Shown here in pieces: positions 1-5,670 of a stretch of 6,825 nucleotides of DNA. A program made the translations under genes and the position numbers. Every line of letters starts with the position of its first letter. Position 1 is the stretch's first letter. The stretch comes from an uncultured Selenomonadaceae bacterium (GTDB lineage Bacteria > Bacillota_C > Negativicutes > Selenomonadales > Selenomonadaceae), in NCBI GenBank assembly GCA_946402475.1, contig CAMIWP010000061.1:1-6825 (forward strand), read 5' to 3'. The notes beneath the pieces are model-generated. The model saw only the letters and a list, made by a program, of their open reading frames with translations. It had not been told where the DNA came from and ran no database searches.

Positions 1-1631
1 GATCGATGACCCACGCTCATGATGCCGGTATCGGGAAGATCTTTTCTCAAGAGTTCGTACATTTCCTGTTCCCTCGGCTCATCCAGCGCCGAGGTGGCCT
101 CGTCGAGGAAAAGCCACTTGGGCTTCACCAGGAGGATCCTTGCAAAGGCCAGACGCTGCTGCTCTCCCAAGGACAAAATACGGCTCCAGTCATCCACGGT
201 ATCCAGCTTTTCCGCAAAATGGCTCAGTCCCACCTTCCCGAGAACTTCTGACAGAGCCCCGTCGGCACCGGATTCGCTCATCGGATAGTACAGGGCGCGC
301 CGCAGGCTTCCCAAAGGAAGATATGGCTTCTGGGGCAGGAAAAGAACCCTGTCCTCCTGAGGAATGGATATCCTCCCCCCGCCGAATGGCCAGATGCCCG
401 CCAGCATGCGAAGGAAGGTACTCTTGCCGCAGCCGGAGGCTCCCATAACCAGAAGCCTCATACCCCGCGGCAGATCCAGATCGCAGTGATCCAGAAGAAT
501 GCGCCCGTCGGGAAGTTCCACCACCAGATCCTTCAGCTTCATGCTCGTCCCGTCATCGGCATCCCTGTCCACCCGGCTCTCGATGTCCGCCACTTCATCC
601 ACATGCTCCGTGAAGCCGGAGAGACGGCGGACGACAGCAGCCAACTGGGCGATGACATCGTAGGACTCCACGAAGTAGGAAAGGGCGTCCTGTACCCGCC
701 CGAAGGCCGAGACCGTCTGCATGAGCCCCCCCAGCGCCATGGCGCCGGAAAAATACTGGGGAGATGCCAATACCAAGGGAACGATGACAGCGAGCTGGGC
801 ATAGCCGTTCACGTAGAAATTCAAGAGCTTGGTCTGCTTCATGAGCTGCCAGTAGTTCGAAACGACATGGGCGAAGCGCTCCCTGAAGCCTTCCTTCTCC
901 GGCCGCTCTCCTGCGTAAAAGGCAATGCTCTCGCTGTTCTCCCTCACCCGCATCATGTTGAAACGGAAATCCGCTTCGTAGCGCTGCTGATCGAAATTCA
1001 GCCCGATGAGCTTCCTTCCCACCAGATGGACGAGCCCCGTACCCACAAGGGAATAGGCCAGGGAAAACCAAAACATATAGCCGTAGATCTCGAAAGAGTA
1101 GCTGCCCAGCGGCACCGTGAAGGCCCCGGAAAGATTCCAGAGCACCACGCTGAAGGCCGCCAGAGTGGTCATCTGCTTCAAGAACCCGATGAGGAGCTGC
1201 AGAGTCAGGGTAACGAATTGGTTGATGTCCTCCGAGATACGCTGATCCGGGTTGTCCGTGTCGCTTCTGAGTACCTGGAGGCGATAGTAGACCTGTTCCT
1301 TCATCCAGCGGTCGAGATATTTCTCCGTCATCCACGTCCGCCACTTGAGCTGAAGCATCTGCCTGAGATACACGGCATAAACGGCAATGCAGATATAGAG
1401 AAAGGCCAGACCCGTGAACTCTCCCACCAAAGGCCAAAAGAGCCCTTCCTCGTAGTTCTGCAAGGCGTTGTAGAACTCATTGTACCAGCTGTTGATTTTC
1501 ACCAGAAGGTACACCGTCGCAAAGTTCAGGGCAATAACAAGGGCCAGGAGACCCCTGGCCCGCCATTTCATCTCTGAGTTCCAGTATCCCTTGAACAGAA
1601 GCCATAATGCGCGAATATGCTTCCCCCTCAA
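1..1631 (-). CDS. YddA/SbmA-type ABC transporter, fused permease and ATPase (3' end missing)
   Basis: This is a half-transporter with the membrane domain followed by the ATPase (ABC_membrane_2/COG4178, the YddA, SbmA/BacA and ABCD group). The first 543 residues are in the window and the gene runs off at base 1. Hydrophobic segments lie at about residues 27-46, 71-90, 140-167, 184-205 and 275-293. The family-typical DNPDQRISEDI is at 125-135 and an EADFRF motif at 219-224. The ATPase shows Walker A GASGCGKST (397-405), signature LSLGEQQ (486-492), Walker B WLFLDE with D510 and E511, and the H-loop SVGHR with H542, so it looks catalytically intact. The TTG start at 1631 is chosen because GAGGAG lies 8 nt upstream and the leading residues MRGKHIRALWLLFKGYWNSE resemble the family N-terminus; the first in-frame ATG (1566) would remove them. 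It lies 2 nt after the STAS gene and is probably co-translated with it. Known relatives import peptides or cobalamin or move acyl-CoA; substrate and direction here are unknown. Confidence 0.93.
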   Translation of the reverse strand, partial: MRGKHIRALWLLFKGYWNSEMKWRARGLLALVIALNFATVYLLVKINSWYNEFYNALQNYEEGLFWPLVGEFTGLAFLYICIAVYAVYLRQMLQLKWRTWMTEKYLDRWMKEQVYYRLQVLRSDTDNPDQRISEDINQFVTLTLQLLIGFLKQMTTLAAFSVVLWNLSGAFTVPLGSYSFEIYGYMFWFSLAYSLVGTGLVHLVGRKLIGLNFDQQRYEADFRFNMMRVRENSESIAFYAGERPEKEGFRERFAHVVSNYWQLMKQTKLLNFYVNGYAQLAVIVPLVLASPQYFSGAMALGGLMQTVSAFGRVQDALSYFVESYDVIAQLAAVVRRLSGFTEHVDEVADIESRVDRDADDGTSMKLKDLVVELPDGRILLDHCDLDLPRGMRLLVMGASGCGKSTFLRMLAGIWPFGGGRISIPQEDRVLFLPQKPYLPLGSLRRALYYPMSESGADGALSEVLGKVGLSHFAEKLDTVDDWSRILSLGEQQRLAFARILLVKPKWLFLDEATSALDEPREQEMYELLRKDLPDTGIMSVGHR

Positions 1632-1633
1632 AA

Positions 1634-1936
1634 TCAGGACTCCTCAATGGTCAGAAAATCAATGAAGCCCGTCATCTCAAGAACCTCTTTCACGTCCCTG
1701 TTCACATGGCGAAGCCGCATTTCTCCCTGCTTCTTCATGCGCTTCTGGGCCACCAGCAGCGTCCTGAGGCCCGCCGATGCGATATAGCTCAGATCCTTGA
1801 GGTCGAAGACCAGATCCTTGATCCCGTCCAGGGAACTGGAGATCACCTTCTCCAAGTCCTGGGCCGTCACGGCGTCCAGTCTGCCGGACAGAGATATGAC
1901 AAGAGCGTCACCCTTCTGATCTTTTTTGATTTCCAT
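1634..1936 (-). CDS. STAS-domain protein, anti-sigma factor antagonist type (SpoIIAA-like)
   Basis: A 100-residue single STAS domain with nothing else attached. The start follows the SpoIIAA/RsbV pattern: beta strand ALVISLSGRLDAVTAQDLE (11-29), then the core strand DLVFDLKDLSYIASAGLR (41-58). S54 in the IASAG motif lines up with the serine phosphorylated in SpoIIAA by its partner kinase/anti-sigma factor, so a phosphorylation switch is possible; the residue before it is Ala where SpoIIAA has Asp. The helix LLVAQKRMKKQG and the final strand/helix (73-97) complete the fold. The ATG at 1936 is preferred because GGAG sits 10 nt upstream; the ATG at 1945 has that GGAG only 1 nt away. The gene follows the condensation/cNBD gene after 43 nt and precedes the ABC transporter by 2 nt, so it is the middle gene of one operon. 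Its usual partners (an HATPase anti-sigma factor and a PP2C phosphatase) are not in the window. It could also regulate the transporter or fusion protein directly. Confidence 0.93.
   Translation of the reverse strand: MEIKKDQKGDALVISLSGRLDAVTAQDLEKVISSSLDGIKDLVFDLKDLSYIASAGLRTLLVAQKRMKKQGEMRLRHVNRDVKEVLEMTGFIDFLTIEES
1640..1645 (-). promoter_or_regulatory. Ribosome binding site inside the STAS gene that sets the TTG start of the ABC transporter
   Basis: GAGGAG lies in the last codons of the STAS gene, 8 nt before the TTG at 1631. No ATG lies in frame upstream of this TTG, because an in-frame stop occurs shortly before. The arrangement implies translational coupling of the STAS protein and the transporter. 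Confidence 0.7.
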
Positions 1937-1946
1937 ACTTAACATT

Positions 1947-1979: not shown

Positions 1980-3857
1980 TCACGCCTGCATCCACAGGCG
2001 CTGGTATTTCTCCAATTGTCGGGTGAGATGCTTTATGATACCCCTCACAAACTCCGGATATTTCGACACGAAATCCCTCACCCCGCCCATGGGACACACC
2101 AGGATCTCCGCCTCCTCGGTCAGCACCTCGGCGGAACACTGGGTCTTTCGATCGGTGAGAAAGACGGTATCATTGACCCAAGCCCCCGCTTTCAGAATAT
2201 CCAGCGTGTTATACCAACCGTCCCCGGTATCGACGTTCCTGGCCACCTTTCCGAAGGCCACAAAGATCAGGCAGTTCTCCATGACGGAACCGGAGATCCG
2301 ATCTCCCTCAAATTTCCGCTCCAAGCGGCCGTTCTTCGCAAAATGCTGAATAAGATGCCTGTCCACATTCTGCAAGACTTCGACCTCATCAAGGAGTTCC
2401 ACCATCCGTTCGGACTCGCTCTTCCGCTGGAGGGCGCTATCCTCCTTCTCCGCTTCCCAGATGCGGTGGCTCAGACGTCCCATGAAGGCATCGAGATCAA
2501 GATTCCAATCGGTGATCATCTGCTGCAGCGCGAGCAAATAACGATTGGCCAAAAGGTTCCCACCGTCCGGCATGAACCGGCGCTCATCGTACATGACGGA
2601 GAAAGAGACGTGCCCATCCTCGTATCGGAAGTAGATGCCAAGCTGGGCGCCCCGGGCATCCCAGGAGTTCCTCATGACAAGGGTTCCTTCCTGCGTTGCC
2701 GTAACCTCCGAATACTTTTGCTCCTCCACCATGAAGTCAAAGAAACTGAGAAAGTGATCGAAGGTCTGCCCCCCCGTCAGTTCCCGCAAGCCCTCCCAAT
2801 CGAAACAGCTGTAGGGCTGGGACACCAAAAGCTGCTGGAATTGCTGGGCTGCCAGCTTCTGCACGCTCATGTTGCCGCTGTTCTTGATCCGAACCGGCAT
2901 CATGTTGAACCCGCTGTTCTGCAGGCGGTTTCCCTTCTCCTTGCGCTCCGGCACCAGCAGGCAGAAGAACACATCCTTGCAGGAATTGTTGCACTCTTGG
3001 AGCACAAAGCCCCATGCGGTCTGAAGAATCGCCATGAGCATCATCCGGTTGGACTTCGCCTTTTCCCGAAGATCCGACATAATGTCCGTCGGAATGACCT
3101 TGCGATACACCCTCTGCCGGTAAATCTCCCCCCTCCTCGCCGTCTTTCTGCAAGGCAGGGCCGGTGTCTTGGGAAGATCGGACAGCATCTGGGCCCAATA
3201 CTCCCGCATGGCTCCCCCCAGCGCTGGCTTCCGGGGCAATGGGGCGGCGTCATGCTCCCGCTCTTCCGTCGAAATCTCCTGCCCGATGACCCTCAGGAAG
3301 ATCTCTCTCATATCCACCCGATCCAGTATGGCTTGGGCCACCGTAGCCAGGACGGCATACTCATTTCCGCCGGTATGGAACACCGTGAAGCGCAGGATAT
3401 TTCCGTGCCGCAGGTCGAATTCTTCCCGCATGTCGGCTTCCATGGCCTTCCTCAGCCTCGTGTCCACCTCCTCCGGTTCCATGTAGGACATGTTCTGGTA
3501 TACGATCTTCGGCAGATCCTTGCGCTCCCCGAAGACCACCGCGAGGGTGCCCTGATCCGTTGGACAGTAATTCGTGCGCAGGATGTCCGACTTCTCGATC
3601 ATCGTATGCAGCACGCGATTGAATCGAAGGGGCGTAAAATTGCCGCAAACCTTGTAGAGTGCCTGGGTCAGAAAATTGGGGGACAACACCATGCCCTCGG
3701 CGAAAATTCTCTTCTCGTACTCCGTCAGTTCCCTTGCGTAAAGAATCCTGTTTGCCACGTAGCCCTGTCCACCCCGAAAGTGGTGAACCCCATACACCTG
3801 GCGCAGCATGTCCTGCTGTGCCTCCGGAAGCTCATCCGGCTGCCATCGTTTTCCCAT
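1980..3857 (-). CDS. NRPS-type condensation domain (catalytically degenerate) fused to a cyclic-nucleotide-binding-like domain
   Basis: 625 residues from the ATG at 3857, with AAAGGG 8 nt upstream; an in-frame GTG at 3866 overlaps that site and is less likely. An N-terminal stretch of about 45 residues is followed by a condensation-domain fold (about 46-455). It shows a C1-like LTEYEKRIF (45-53), C2-like SDILRTNY (90-97), C4-like REYWAQML (218-225), C5-like GFNMMPVRI (316-324) and C6-like YSCFDWEGL (349-357). At the catalytic motif HHxxxDG the sequence reads AQAILDR (174-180): both histidines and the glycine are lost and only Asp remains, so peptide-bond condensation is not expected. Residues about 485-610 look like a CRP/cNMP-binding beta-roll and helix, but the phosphate-binding cassette has ND for GE (562-563 region) and Cys in place of the usual Arg before SA. 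There is no HTH, so it is not a transcription factor of the Crp type. No signal peptide or membrane segment is seen. It heads the operon with STAS and the ABC transporter. A sensor, scaffold or non-catalytic acyl/peptidyl binding role is inference. Confidence 0.85.
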   Translation of the reverse strand: MGKRWQPDELPEAQQDMLRQVYGVHHFRGGQGYVANRILYARELTEYEKRIFAEGMVLSPNFLTQALYKVCGNFTPLRFNRVLHTMIEKSDILRTNYCPTDQGTLAVVFGERKDLPKIVYQNMSYMEPEEVDTRLRKAMEADMREEFDLRHGNILRFTVFHTGGNEYAVLATVAQAILDRVDMREIFLRVIGQEISTEEREHDAAPLPRKPALGGAMREYWAQMLSDLPKTPALPCRKTARRGEIYRQRVYRKVIPTDIMSDLREKAKSNRMMLMAILQTAWGFVLQECNNSCKDVFFCLLVPERKEKGNRLQNSGFNMMPVRIKNSGNMSVQKLAAQQFQQLLVSQPYSCFDWEGLRELTGGQTFDHFLSFFDFMVEEQKYSEVTATQEGTLVMRNSWDARGAQLGIYFRYEDGHVSFSVMYDERRFMPDGGNLLANRYLLALQQMITDWNLDLDAFMGRLSHRIWEAEKEDSALQRKSESERMVELLDEVEVLQNVDRHLIQHFAKNGRLERKFEGDRISGSVMENCLIFVAFGKVARNVDTGDGWYNTLDILKAGAWVNDTVFLTDRKTQCSAEVLTEEAEILVCPMGGVRDFVSKYPEFVRGIIKHLTRQLEKYQRLWMQA

Positions 3858-3865
3858 AGCCAACA

Positions 3866-3871
3866 CCCTTT
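3866..3871 (-). promoter_or_regulatory. Ribosome binding site of the condensation/cNBD gene
   Basis: AAAGGG is 8 nt upstream of the ATG at 3857. It overlaps the alternative GTG start, which supports the ATG. Confidence 0.5.
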
Positions 3872-3935
3872 GCTCGTTGTGTCCATGCGGAGCATCCTCA
3901 TGCCCCTTTTCCGCAAAACATCCCCTACGACTATG

Positions 3936-3962
3936 ATTCGCCCTATCTCTCCAAAATCCTGC
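3936..3962 (-). promoter_or_regulatory. SigH-type promoter of the condensation/cNBD-STAS-ABC operon
   Basis: On the minus strand the -35 region reads GCAGGATTT (3962-3954), followed by 11 nt, then GGC and GAAT (3939-3936). This fits the Bacillus SigH consensus RNAGGAWWW-N11/12-RNNGAAT at every fixed position. The AGGA-to-GAAT gap is 17 nt, as I recall for the classical spoVG promoter. It lies in the 112-nt gap after the sigma-factor stop codon and would give a leader of roughly 70 nt before the ATG at 3857. The sigma gene just upstream encodes the matching factor type. Confidence 0.8.
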
Positions 3963-3969
3963 TCACAAT

Positions 3970-4677
3970 TCACGACGGTCCCGCATCCTCAAAACAGAGA
4001 AGCCGGTGAAAGTACTGCCGGAGCATTTTCAGCGTAATGTCCCCCCGGGCCTTGATCCCCGCGCGAATGGTGTGCTTTGCCCTCTGCAGGGCATTGTCCA
4101 CGGATTTCACGCTCCGCCCCATGATGCGCGCAATCTCCTCGTAGCTGTTTCCGTTCAGGTAGTGCAGAACCGCCTCGAACTCTACCCGCGAAAGTGCTTT
4201 CCTGATAAATGCATGGCAGATCTCATACTCTTCCTGTTGGATGATCTTGTCCGACGCCTCCACTCCACCCTTATCCATCAGGATGTCCATGAAGGTGACC
4301 TCCGAATCCTGCAGATGCACCATGGCATGAAGGGATACCGAGGAGTTCAGCGGGCGATGTTTCTGCCGGTTCGCCGTCTTTATGGCCGAAATGTACTGAC
4401 AACGGACGCAACGCTTGGCAAAGGCGGAAAACGGGGCTTCCCTATGCAGTTCATACCCCTTCACGGCCTTGAAAAAACCCAGGCGCCCTTCCTGCAACAA
4501 ATCCTCATCCCCTGCCTTCAGGAGAAAATAATGATGGCCTACCGCCTGAATCATACGGTTGTACCGTCGGTAAAGCTCCGACAAGGCCAGATTGTCATTC
4601 CTCTCCCGATAGCAACGAACAAGATGATCATCCGATAAATGCCTGTAGTCCACATCCCACTTACGATGTTTGCTCAT
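3970..4677 (-). CDS. sigH-like: SigH-family RNA polymerase sigma factor
   Basis: 235 residues, close to the length I recall for Bacillus SigH (about 218). Region 2 includes DEDLLQEGRLGFFKAVKGYE (57-76), the core-binding helix, and CVRCQYISAIKTANRQKH (90-107), covering the -10-recognition part. The following PLNSSVSLHA is a SigH hallmark. Region 4 holds a helix-turn-helix, SYEEIARIMGRSVKSVDNAL (178-197), then QRAKHTIR, which very closely resembles SigH. The ATG at 4677 is chosen over the ATG at 4683 because AGGGGA is 9 nt before the former and only 3 nt before the latter; the longer reading frame further upstream is AT-rich, unrelated to sigma factors, and overlaps the promoter. SigH normally drives transition-state, competence and early sporulation genes. 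Here matching promoters precede both this gene and the next operon, so autoregulation and a dedicated target are inferred. Whether it is the genome's main SigH or a paralogue tied to this locus cannot be decided here. Confidence 0.95.
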   Translation of the reverse strand: MSKHRKWDVDYRHLSDDHLVRCYRERNDNLALSELYRRYNRMIQAVGHHYFLLKAGDEDLLQEGRLGFFKAVKGYELHREAPFSAFAKRCVRCQYISAIKTANRQKHRPLNSSVSLHAMVHLQDSEVTFMDILMDKGGVEASDKIIQQEEYEICHAFIRKALSRVEFEAVLHYLNGNSYEEIARIMGRSVKSVDNALQRAKHTIRAGIKARGDITLKMLRQYFHRLLCFEDAGPS

Positions 4678-4723
4678 ATCCATCCGTCCCCTGTCATAAC
4701 GCAAAATTTGAATCCGCGTTCCA

Positions 4724-4746
4724 ACAAGGCAAGAGATTCCCCTTGT
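4724..4746 (-). other. Small hairpin in the sigma-gene leader
   Basis: ACAAGG and CCTTGT form a 6-bp stem with an 11-nt loop, within the transcript expected from the promoter at 4799-4825 and about 45 nt before the start codon. No U-run follows, so it is not a terminator. It may be chance. Confidence 0.25.
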
Positions 4747-4761
4747 CTCGCGATATCCTCT
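4736..4761 (-). promoter_or_regulatory. Possible second, off-spaced SigH-type promoter for the sigma gene
   Basis: AGAGGATAT (4761-4753) is followed by GGG-GAAT ending at 4736. Every consensus base is present, but the AGGA-to-GAAT gap is 16 nt instead of 17-18. It could be a weak tandem promoter or chance. Confidence 0.25.
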
Positions 4762-4798
4762 ATGAAGCAATCGTGAAAGAATCAGTCCACTTTTGAAT

Positions 4799-4825
4799 AT
4801 TCTACACCCAAAAAAAAAATCCTGC
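4799..4825 (-). promoter_or_regulatory. SigH-type promoter of the sigma-factor gene (autoregulation)
   Basis: On the minus strand GCAGGATTT (4825-4817) is followed by an 11-nt spacer of seven T then GGGT, then GTA and GAAT (4802-4799). All fixed positions of the SigH consensus RNAGGAWWW-N11-RNNGAAT match, and the AGGA-to-GAAT gap is 17 nt. The -35 element is identical to that at 3954-3962. The leader to the start codon would be about 110 nt. The ten-T run spans the 3' part of the -35 element and the spacer. Confidence 0.8.
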
Positions 4826-4865
4826 AAAAAAATTTCCACCCATGCCCCCTTCGAGCGATAACAGA

Positions 4866-4883
4866 GTCATCGAAGACGATGAC
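4866..4883 (-). terminator. Hairpin after the proline-rich gene, possible weak terminator
   Basis: GTCATCG, a TCTT loop and CGATGAC form a perfect 7-bp stem starting 17 nt after the stop codon at 4900. There is no immediate T-run; the nearest one (seven T, 4826-4832) is over 30 nt further. It could terminate, pause or protect the 3' end of the upstream operon. Confidence 0.35.
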
Positions 4884-4899
4884 AGAGCATGCCGGTTCG

Positions 4900-5670
4900 T
4901 TAGACCCTCACCTCAAATCGCTCTTCGCCATCCTTTTTCCCGGAAGGGCGCTGGAAATCTTGGCTGGACGGCTTCTTCGCCCTTGGGGAAGGCGCTGCTG
5001 CTCGAGCCGCATATTCCTTAGCCACCTGAAGGGGCGGCATCATGGGCGGCTTTGCCTCCTGCTGCCGGATCTCCTCCAATGCCTCCGCCGCAGTCATTCC
5101 CGCTCTCAGCTTAACCTCAAGCTCCTGCGGCGTGGGCTCCCTTGCCGTCCCCTTCTCCTTCTCTCGGAAGAGGATCTTTCGGAGGACCATCGCCACCAAA
5201 ACGGTGATGGCGAGAAGTGTGCTGCCCCAGTAGAACATCCCGTGATATTCCGGCGACTCCGGCAGCTTCGGAGGCGTTGCTTGCAGGGCTTGGCTGCTCC
5301 CGGCCGTATTTTCTTCGCCCATGAGCATTTGAGCCTGGGCATCCTGCTGGAGTGCGGTTCGATCGGTTTTGCTTCCTCCCGCAGGAATCCGGGGTTCTGC
5401 CATTCCCTTTTCCGACACAGGGGCTGTCACTTCCCGGGCATTTGGTTCCGGAGACTCCTTCTTTCCATCGGTCACTGTGGTCTTGGAGAGCGGCCCTTCT
5501 CCGTTGGCCACGGCTTCCCTGGCCTGCGCCTCGTGGATCTCCTCCTCTGTCCGAGGGCCGTGGCTCTGGGGCACGGTGGTCTCCTTCACGCTCCCCCCTT
5601 CCATAAGCTCTACCTTTGGAGGTATCGGCGGAGCAGGAGGCGTGGGAGGAGTAGGTGCTTTCAGCGCCAT
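4900..5670 (-). CDS. Proline-rich protein with one membrane segment, function unknown
   Basis: 256 residues that I cannot assign to a family. The N-terminus is a proline ladder, APTPPTPPAPPIPP (5-18), followed by a long polar, probably disordered stretch (about 20-140). One strongly hydrophobic helix follows at about 145-168 (FYWGSTLLAITVLVAMVL at 146-163), flanked by RKILFREKEKG. The basic flank on the C-terminal side suggests, by the positive-inside rule, that the C-terminus is cytoplasmic and the proline-rich N-terminus is outside, without a cleavable signal. The cytoplasmic part has an amphipathic helix (PQELEVKLRAGMTAAEALEE, 181-200) and a basic, Pro/Ala-rich tail. The ATG at 5670 is 2 nt after the stop codon of the ROK gene, with GAGGGGGG just upstream, so the two are translationally coupled. 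Proline ladders often reach across a cell envelope or bind partners, as in TonB-like proteins, but no TonB C-terminal domain is present. That comparison is only suggestive. Confidence 0.75.
   Translation of the reverse strand: MALKAPTPPTPPAPPIPPKVELMEGGSVKETTVPQSHGPRTEEEIHEAQAREAVANGEGPLSKTTVTDGKKESPEPNAREVTAPVSEKGMAEPRIPAGGSKTDRTALQQDAQAQMLMGEENTAGSSQALQATPPKLPESPEYHGMFYWGSTLLAITVLVAMVLRKILFREKEKGTAREPTPQELEVKLRAGMTAAEALEEIRQQEAKPPMMPPLQVAKEYAARAAAPSPRAKKPSSQDFQRPSGKKDGEERFEVRV

Follow-up and report, generated by a model that had tools for sequence, protein, structure and literature searches.

Two near-identical promoter sites of SigH type bracket a gene for a SigH-like sigma factor, which raises the question of whether they are read by the product of the flanked gene or by another sigma factor. 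The arrangement occurs on a contig of 6825 bases (hereafter the window, meaning the whole stretch of DNA analyzed), whose affinity lies with the rumen Selenomonadaceae, the nearest named relatives of its sigma factor coming from Selenomonadaceae and Veillonellaceae MAGs (82-86%). An earlier reading of the letters themselves (the sequence-only reading) had proposed a self-amplifying switch, i.e., a sigma factor which activates both its own gene and an adjacent target operon of its own.

Organization of the locus and its two promoter sites

The genes on the minus strand of the window encode a ROK-family protein, a proline-rich protein, a sigma factor, a condensation/cNMP-binding-like protein, a STAS protein and an SbmA/BacA-like ABC transporter. 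The sigma factor (3970..4677, minus strand, 235 aa) combines the Sigma70_r2 and Sigma70_r4_2 domains, and its top NCBIfam models are those of SigH, with scores below the cut-off. Its coding start most likely lies at 4677 (an ATG preceded by GGGGACGG); a long ORF reaching 4839 is an open-frame extension, which spans the first promoter site. Downstream on the same strand lie a condensation-domain protein carrying a cNMP-binding-like domain at its C terminus (1980..3857; PF00668, E 3e-22; PF00027, E 1.8e-4, below cut-off), a STAS-domain protein of the anti-sigma-factor-antagonist family (1634..1945; PF01740, E 8.8e-18; TIGR00377 above cut-off) and, truncated at the window edge, an SbmA/BacA-like ABC transporter with a fused ATPase (3..1631; PF06472, PF05992 and PF00005). 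The proline-rich protein (256 aa, window 4900-5670) is encoded directly upstream of the sigma promoter and displays a hydrophobic stretch by eye; it has no Pfam match above cut-off and none in NCBIfam. A search for plasmid origin of the contig returned zero matches.

The first site (4825-4799, minus strand) reads GCAGGATTT TTTTTTTGGGT GTA GAAT, with the -35 element at 4825-4817 and the -10 GAAT at 4802-4799, and precedes the sigma gene. The second (3962-3936, minus strand) reads GCAGGATTT TGGAGAGATAG GGC GAAT, with the -35 element at 3962-3954 and the -10 element at 3939-3936; it is situated after the sigma stop (3970) and before the next start (ATG at 3857), and so precedes the condensation/cNBD-STAS-ABC operon. 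The coordinates, strand and spacing given for GCAGGATTT-N11-RNN-GAAT in the sequence-only reading are all borne out, as is its count of just two minus-strand matches, which extends to both strands, an exact scan of the window recovering these two sites alone. Its figure of eight fixed bases needs correction, the motif having 13 fixed positions and one purine, such that its rarity had been understated.

As this motif is simply the overlap of the two sites, an independent SigH consensus provides a fairer test. The SigH consensus of B. subtilis is RNAGGAWWW-N11/12-RNNGAAT, and a scan of both strands of the window with it recovers the same two sites and no others. With two mismatches tolerated, there are still just two sites, as against a mean of 0.13 in dinucleotide shuffles, none of which (0/200) reached two. 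Each site carries AGGAWWW with an AGGA-to-GAAT gap of 17, within the 17-18 nt that define a SigH-type promoter. The B. subtilis consensus agrees with the AGGA and GAAT elements at 17-18 nt described in PMC12456013. The earlier assignment of the signals to the SigH type further gains from the enrichment of the class across the family and its occurrence before orthologous genes (see below), and the interpretation of both sites as genuine SigH-class promoters (AGGA-17/18 nt-GAAT) is supported at the level of sequence. Additionally, a scan of positions 3800-5000 found no terminator-like site between the sigma stop and the condensation gene; hence, read-through from the first site into the operon would also be possible.

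A divergent SigH paralogue with partly retained recognition helices

The window sigma factor fails the SigH equivalog models, scoring 169.7 bits against a cut-off of 294.8 for TIGR02859 and 175.9 against 208 for NF006148, whereas the canonical SigH proteins of the relatives G002, G003 and G005 (3/3 tested) pass TIGR02859 at 369-381 bits. Orthologues with 71-86% identity are present in 6 of the 189 family genomes, the next best match falling to 44%. In the phylogenetic tree, the window protein and these six orthologues form a branch of their own away from canonical SigH (support 92/83, not starred), in a topology with several long branches and two rows dropped, where placement between the groups is unsure. 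By the family test, then, it is not SigH, and it is best described as a divergent, lineage-limited SigH paralogue. All six genomes bearing the paralogue possess a second sigma gene of canonical SigH type, which groups with canonical SigH in the tree (that of G004 being split into two contig pieces), and from these relatives a canonical SigH is inferred for the window's own genome. In two of them, both genes lie within about 3 kb on one contig (G002, C19 14806-17829; G004, C40 1474-5164), a proximity which suggests an origin by local duplication. A literature search found no report of a SigH paralogue in Negativicutes or of SigH in Selenomonas, an absence which is thereby not proven.

Comparison of the consensus of the seven paralogues with that of 21 canonical SigH proteins from the family helps to judge what the paralogue might bind, given limits of regions 2.1-2.2, 2.4 and 4.2 which we presume to be correctly placed on these sequences. 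The two consensuses share 15/21 residues (71%) in the -10 helix (region 2.4) and are 50% identical in region 4.2, where VKS[IV]DNALQR is retained; beyond these two regions, identity is 21-41%. At the level of individual positions, the residues near-invariant in SigH which are retained in all seven paralogues number 11/20 in region 2.4, 14/24 in region 4.2 and 11/27 in regions 2.1-2.2. This pattern suggests that the specificity of the paralogue overlaps with that of SigH and, as much of the -10 and -35 recognition helices is retained, the paralogue is likely to recognize promoters of the same class.

The SigH promoter class across the family

A motif scan over genomes, which the sequence-only reading had proposed as a check, places the class well above its reversed control. 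The GAATA form of the site is found in all 189 family genomes, and in the 183 that lack the paralogue it totals 2098 sites, as compared with 119 for the control (~18-fold), the count per genome being higher than the control in 182 and lower in one. A form with a laxer -10 element, AGGAWWTT-N11/12-NN-GAAWA, yields 30, 35 and 31 sites in G001, G002 and G003, the three closest-genus genomes compared, and 2, 1 and 0 when read backwards; for G004, G005 and G006 the values are 31, 34 and 47, against 13, 9 and 13 backwards, all of these counts taking in sites inside genes. Site counts are higher in the paralogue genomes (15-29 against a median of 10; Mann-Whitney p about 2e-4), an excess which is not taken as proof because the six genomes form two close groups.

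Among the matches listed for G001-G003, sites precede genes for CheV, SpoVS, a CdaA-like cyclase, phosphofructokinase and a sugar-binding protein with a chemoreceptor in all three genomes, and genes for CheR-like and HD-GYP-like proteins in two of the three. These names come from sequence reading in the presence of many shadow reading frames, the Pfam check having covered CheV, SpoVS and HATPase. Pfam bore out the identities of SpoVS and of CheV, which combines a CheW with a receiver domain. HisC-like matches inside coding sequence and LepA-like matches overlapping the gene start were dropped from the named targets and kept in the G001-G006 counts.

The two confirmed targets were followed into 14 genomes drawn from the 183 without the paralogue, including the top ten by site count. 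A site within 300 bp upstream of the CheV gene was recovered in 14/14 (L320-L333), always with a gap of 17 and in 13 cases with GAAT; the SpoVS gene is preceded by one within the same distance in 6/6 of the genomes possessing it (L314-L319). The reversed controls gave 1/14 and 0/6, respectively, and across gaps of 8-30 in the CheV test, no gap besides 17 exceeds 5/14. Thus, the SigH promoter class appears firmly to be alive across this gut and rumen family, with CheV as its firmest member in the 14 genomes tested.

A search for the Spo0A C-terminal domain (PF08769) gave 0/12 in six genomes with and six without the paralogue, assemblies whose completeness is not given, with B. subtilis detected as the positive control. 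As Spo0A went undetected in all 12, the SigH class here seems to serve a purpose other than sporulation, chemotaxis being represented by CheV, its firmest member.

Sites upstream of the sigma and condensation genes in relatives

The sequence-only reading had also proposed examining the signals in homologous loci. Upstream of the paralogue gene, a site with a gap of 17 is present in four of the six relatives, ending in GAAT in G002 and in GAAA in G004, G005 and G006; none was found in G003 (400 bp scanned) or in G001 (211 bp scannable). Hence, the proposed autoregulation retains its site before the sigma gene in 4/6 relatives, but self-activation is not separable from activation by SigH, as such a site is equally expected under SigH control and under self-activation. 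Two further ideas were tried and rejected. Autoregulation as an ancestral property of SigH would place sites before canonical SigH genes, and none of the 21 examined has one up to 400 bp from the match. A private -10 variant, GAAATA, prompted by G004-G006, was counted across the 189 genomes, those with the paralogue showing no concentration of it (1-7 sites against 0-5 elsewhere).

The downstream operon has a different distribution. At E<=0.001, the condensation protein has a match in 111 of the 189 genomes, the paralogue being present in 6, and in the five relatives with a complete condensation gene that gene never adjoins the sigma gene (0/5). The upstream test covered 73 stretches: 67 from 63 paralogue-free genomes, five from paralogue genomes and that of the window, the partial G005 copy with an internal stop being left out. 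Among the 67 paralogue-free loci, a loose form of the site is present within 150 bp in 12 (control 2) and within 500 bp in 14 (control 4), the other 53 having none within 500 bp. The stricter RNAGGAWW-RNNGAAT with a gap of 17 or 18 occurs within 500 bp in 11/67, and other gaps give 0-1 loci save for a gap of 10 (four loci), these being inner GAATs in loci which already hold a gap-18 site. With the loose pattern within 150 bp, the gaps of 10, 17 and 18 are represented by 6, 5 and 7 loci. Many of the positive loci are nearly alike (G134/G137/G140/G141; G149/G156/G157/G159), such that they amount to fewer independent cases, about five separate kinds by eye. Since sites precede condensation genes in genomes free of the paralogue, the presence of this predicted SigH-class promoter is independent of the paralogue. 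As regards the homologous loci, then, the promoter class stood up, preceding 11/67 (strict) to 14/67 (loose) paralogue-free condensation genes, while the order of sigma and condensation genes is absent in the relatives and the operon cannot be called a conserved target of the sigma factor's own.

Among the six loci tested from paralogue carriers, including that of the window, a site within 500 bp of the condensation gene is confined to the window and G004. In G001, it lies farther upstream, before an RsbW-like ATPase gene heading an ATPase-condensation-STAS-ABC cluster, and in G002 about 0.9 kb upstream of the condensation gene, before a different gene. A survey of 32 condensation loci, with a flank of at most about 1.5 kb in 27 of them, found a STAS gene nearby in eight, an RsbW-like ATPase gene upstream in four and an ABC gene in two. 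The four ATPase loci are L080 (5783-10299; HATPase_c_2 by Pfam) and, by similarity to it, L212, L217 and L227. The recurrent pairing of ATPase and STAS genes resembles a partner-switch pair; a tie to the paralogue finds no support here.

The condensation domain itself is degenerate. At the position of HHxxxDG, which we take to be the condensation-domain motif, an alignment of the window protein with 20 of the 102 found lacks the first histidine in 21/21 proteins and retains the second in 1/21, as judged by eye. The cNMP-binding-like domain fused to it (FEGDRI..GDGWYNTLDI) is strongly conserved.

Which sigma factor reads the sites

The class is found family-wide, and before CheV, SpoVS and condensation genes in genomes without the paralogue, which makes SigH the likelier main reader. 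Canonical SigH, kept by these bacteria without a detected Spo0A, would be the default reader and most likely drives both promoters of the window. By transcribing the paralogue gene, it would place the paralogue downstream of itself. The paralogue, which kept much of the recognition helices of SigH but drifted elsewhere in its sequence, would in turn read the same class, resulting in a cascade from SigH to the paralogue with possible positive feedback, which may feed the condensation/cNBD-STAS-ABC operon, itself a predicted SigH-class target. To this reading, i.e., SigH as the main reader and a downstream paralogue which probably shares its promoter class, we assign a probability of about 0.65.

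The switch as originally envisaged, with the paralogue as sole reader of both sites, activating its own gene and controlling the neighboring operon as a dedicated target, draws on the two near-consensus sites flanking the sigma gene, the recurrence of the upstream one in G002, G004, G005 and G006 and the largely retained recognition helices; the greater number of sites in paralogue genomes would also fit targets of its own. Yet the class is family-wide with the paralogue in 6/189 genomes, and in its absence sites precede the genes for CheV and SpoVS as well as some condensation genes. Further, a SigH gene of canonical type is co-resident in all six carriers, and the condensation gene does not adjoin the sigma gene in relatives. 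Reading of both sites by the flanking sigma factor is therefore decidedly unlikely as a sole explanation, and self-amplification, while possible, is not favored over a cascade driven by SigH. That the sites are coincidental, or the first a SigA promoter, is more improbable by far: a sigma-70-type 9/12 match (TTTGCA-18-TAGAAT) does overlap the first site at 4828-4799, but such matches occur at chance level (one found, 0.9 expected), whereas two SigH-type sites are not expected in the shuffles and similar ones recur before orthologous genes.

Canonical SigH might instead be the sole reader of both sites, with the paralogue having a shifted specificity or serving as a conditional output with other targets. 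In keeping with this, genomes without the paralogue have both the class and individual sites upstream of CheV, SpoVS and a part of the condensation genes, and the paralogue itself is strongly diverged, having given up many near-invariant SigH residues in regions 2.1-2.2, 2.4 and 4.2 alike. By consensus identity, however, retention is highest in region 2.4 and in the recognition helix for the -35 element, and the GAAATA variant, a possible private class, shows no concentration in the paralogue genomes. On balance, sole reading by SigH seems doubtful, and the cascade from SigH to a paralogue with overlapping specificity is preferred. A bolder extension of that cascade, which we put forward as speculation and hold to be rather improbable, is that a SigH duplicate retained the helices with which SigH reads DNA and took over a SigH promoter for its own gene, and might thereby act as a bistable amplifier on a Selenomonadaceae SigH programme without detectable Spo0A, possibly tied to regulation of sigma activity by partner switching via the neighboring STAS protein, joined in some relatives by an RsbW-like kinase.

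Relation to known SigH systems

The SigH (Spo0H) of Bacillus and Clostridia shares with the window system the -35 AGGA, the -10 GAAT and the gap of 17-18 nt, as well as the domain order and, largely, the recognition helices of the sigma factor. Unlike it, the window protein falls below the family cut-off and on a branch of its own, with relatives in which it coexists with canonical SigH, and the setting differs in that Spo0A was not found in 12/12 Selenomonadaceae genomes. Sporomusa belongs to the same bacterial class as the window organism. A study of Sporomusa sphaeroides KIAC describes an expanded SigH regulon with 322 starts bearing a SigH-type promoter; the motif derived from mapped starts (AGGA/GAAT, 17-18 nt) was assigned to SigH through resemblance and expression correlation (PMC12456013). 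A large class of SigH-type promoters is thus common to both, but Sporomusa has a sporulation programme, whereas here Spo0A is undetected and a sigma paralogue is present. The non-sporulating Listeria and Lactobacillus sakei likewise retain this sporulation sigma factor, which there is linked to competence genes (via PMC12456013); in contrast, the shared targets here, among the matches listed, are CheV, SpoVS, CdaA-like, CheR-like and others.

The promoter class of a sporulation sigma factor therefore looks active across this gut and rumen family, where Spo0A went undetected (12/12 tested). In one lineage, a duplicated sigma factor retaining much of the DNA-reading surface has been added to it, a setting in which to ask how two similar sigma factors divide or share a single promoter class. 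A second divergent SigH-like set, which the tree separates from the window clade as well as from canonical SigH, is present in G148, G162, G164, G165 and G185 (L254, L256, L260, L261 and L262).
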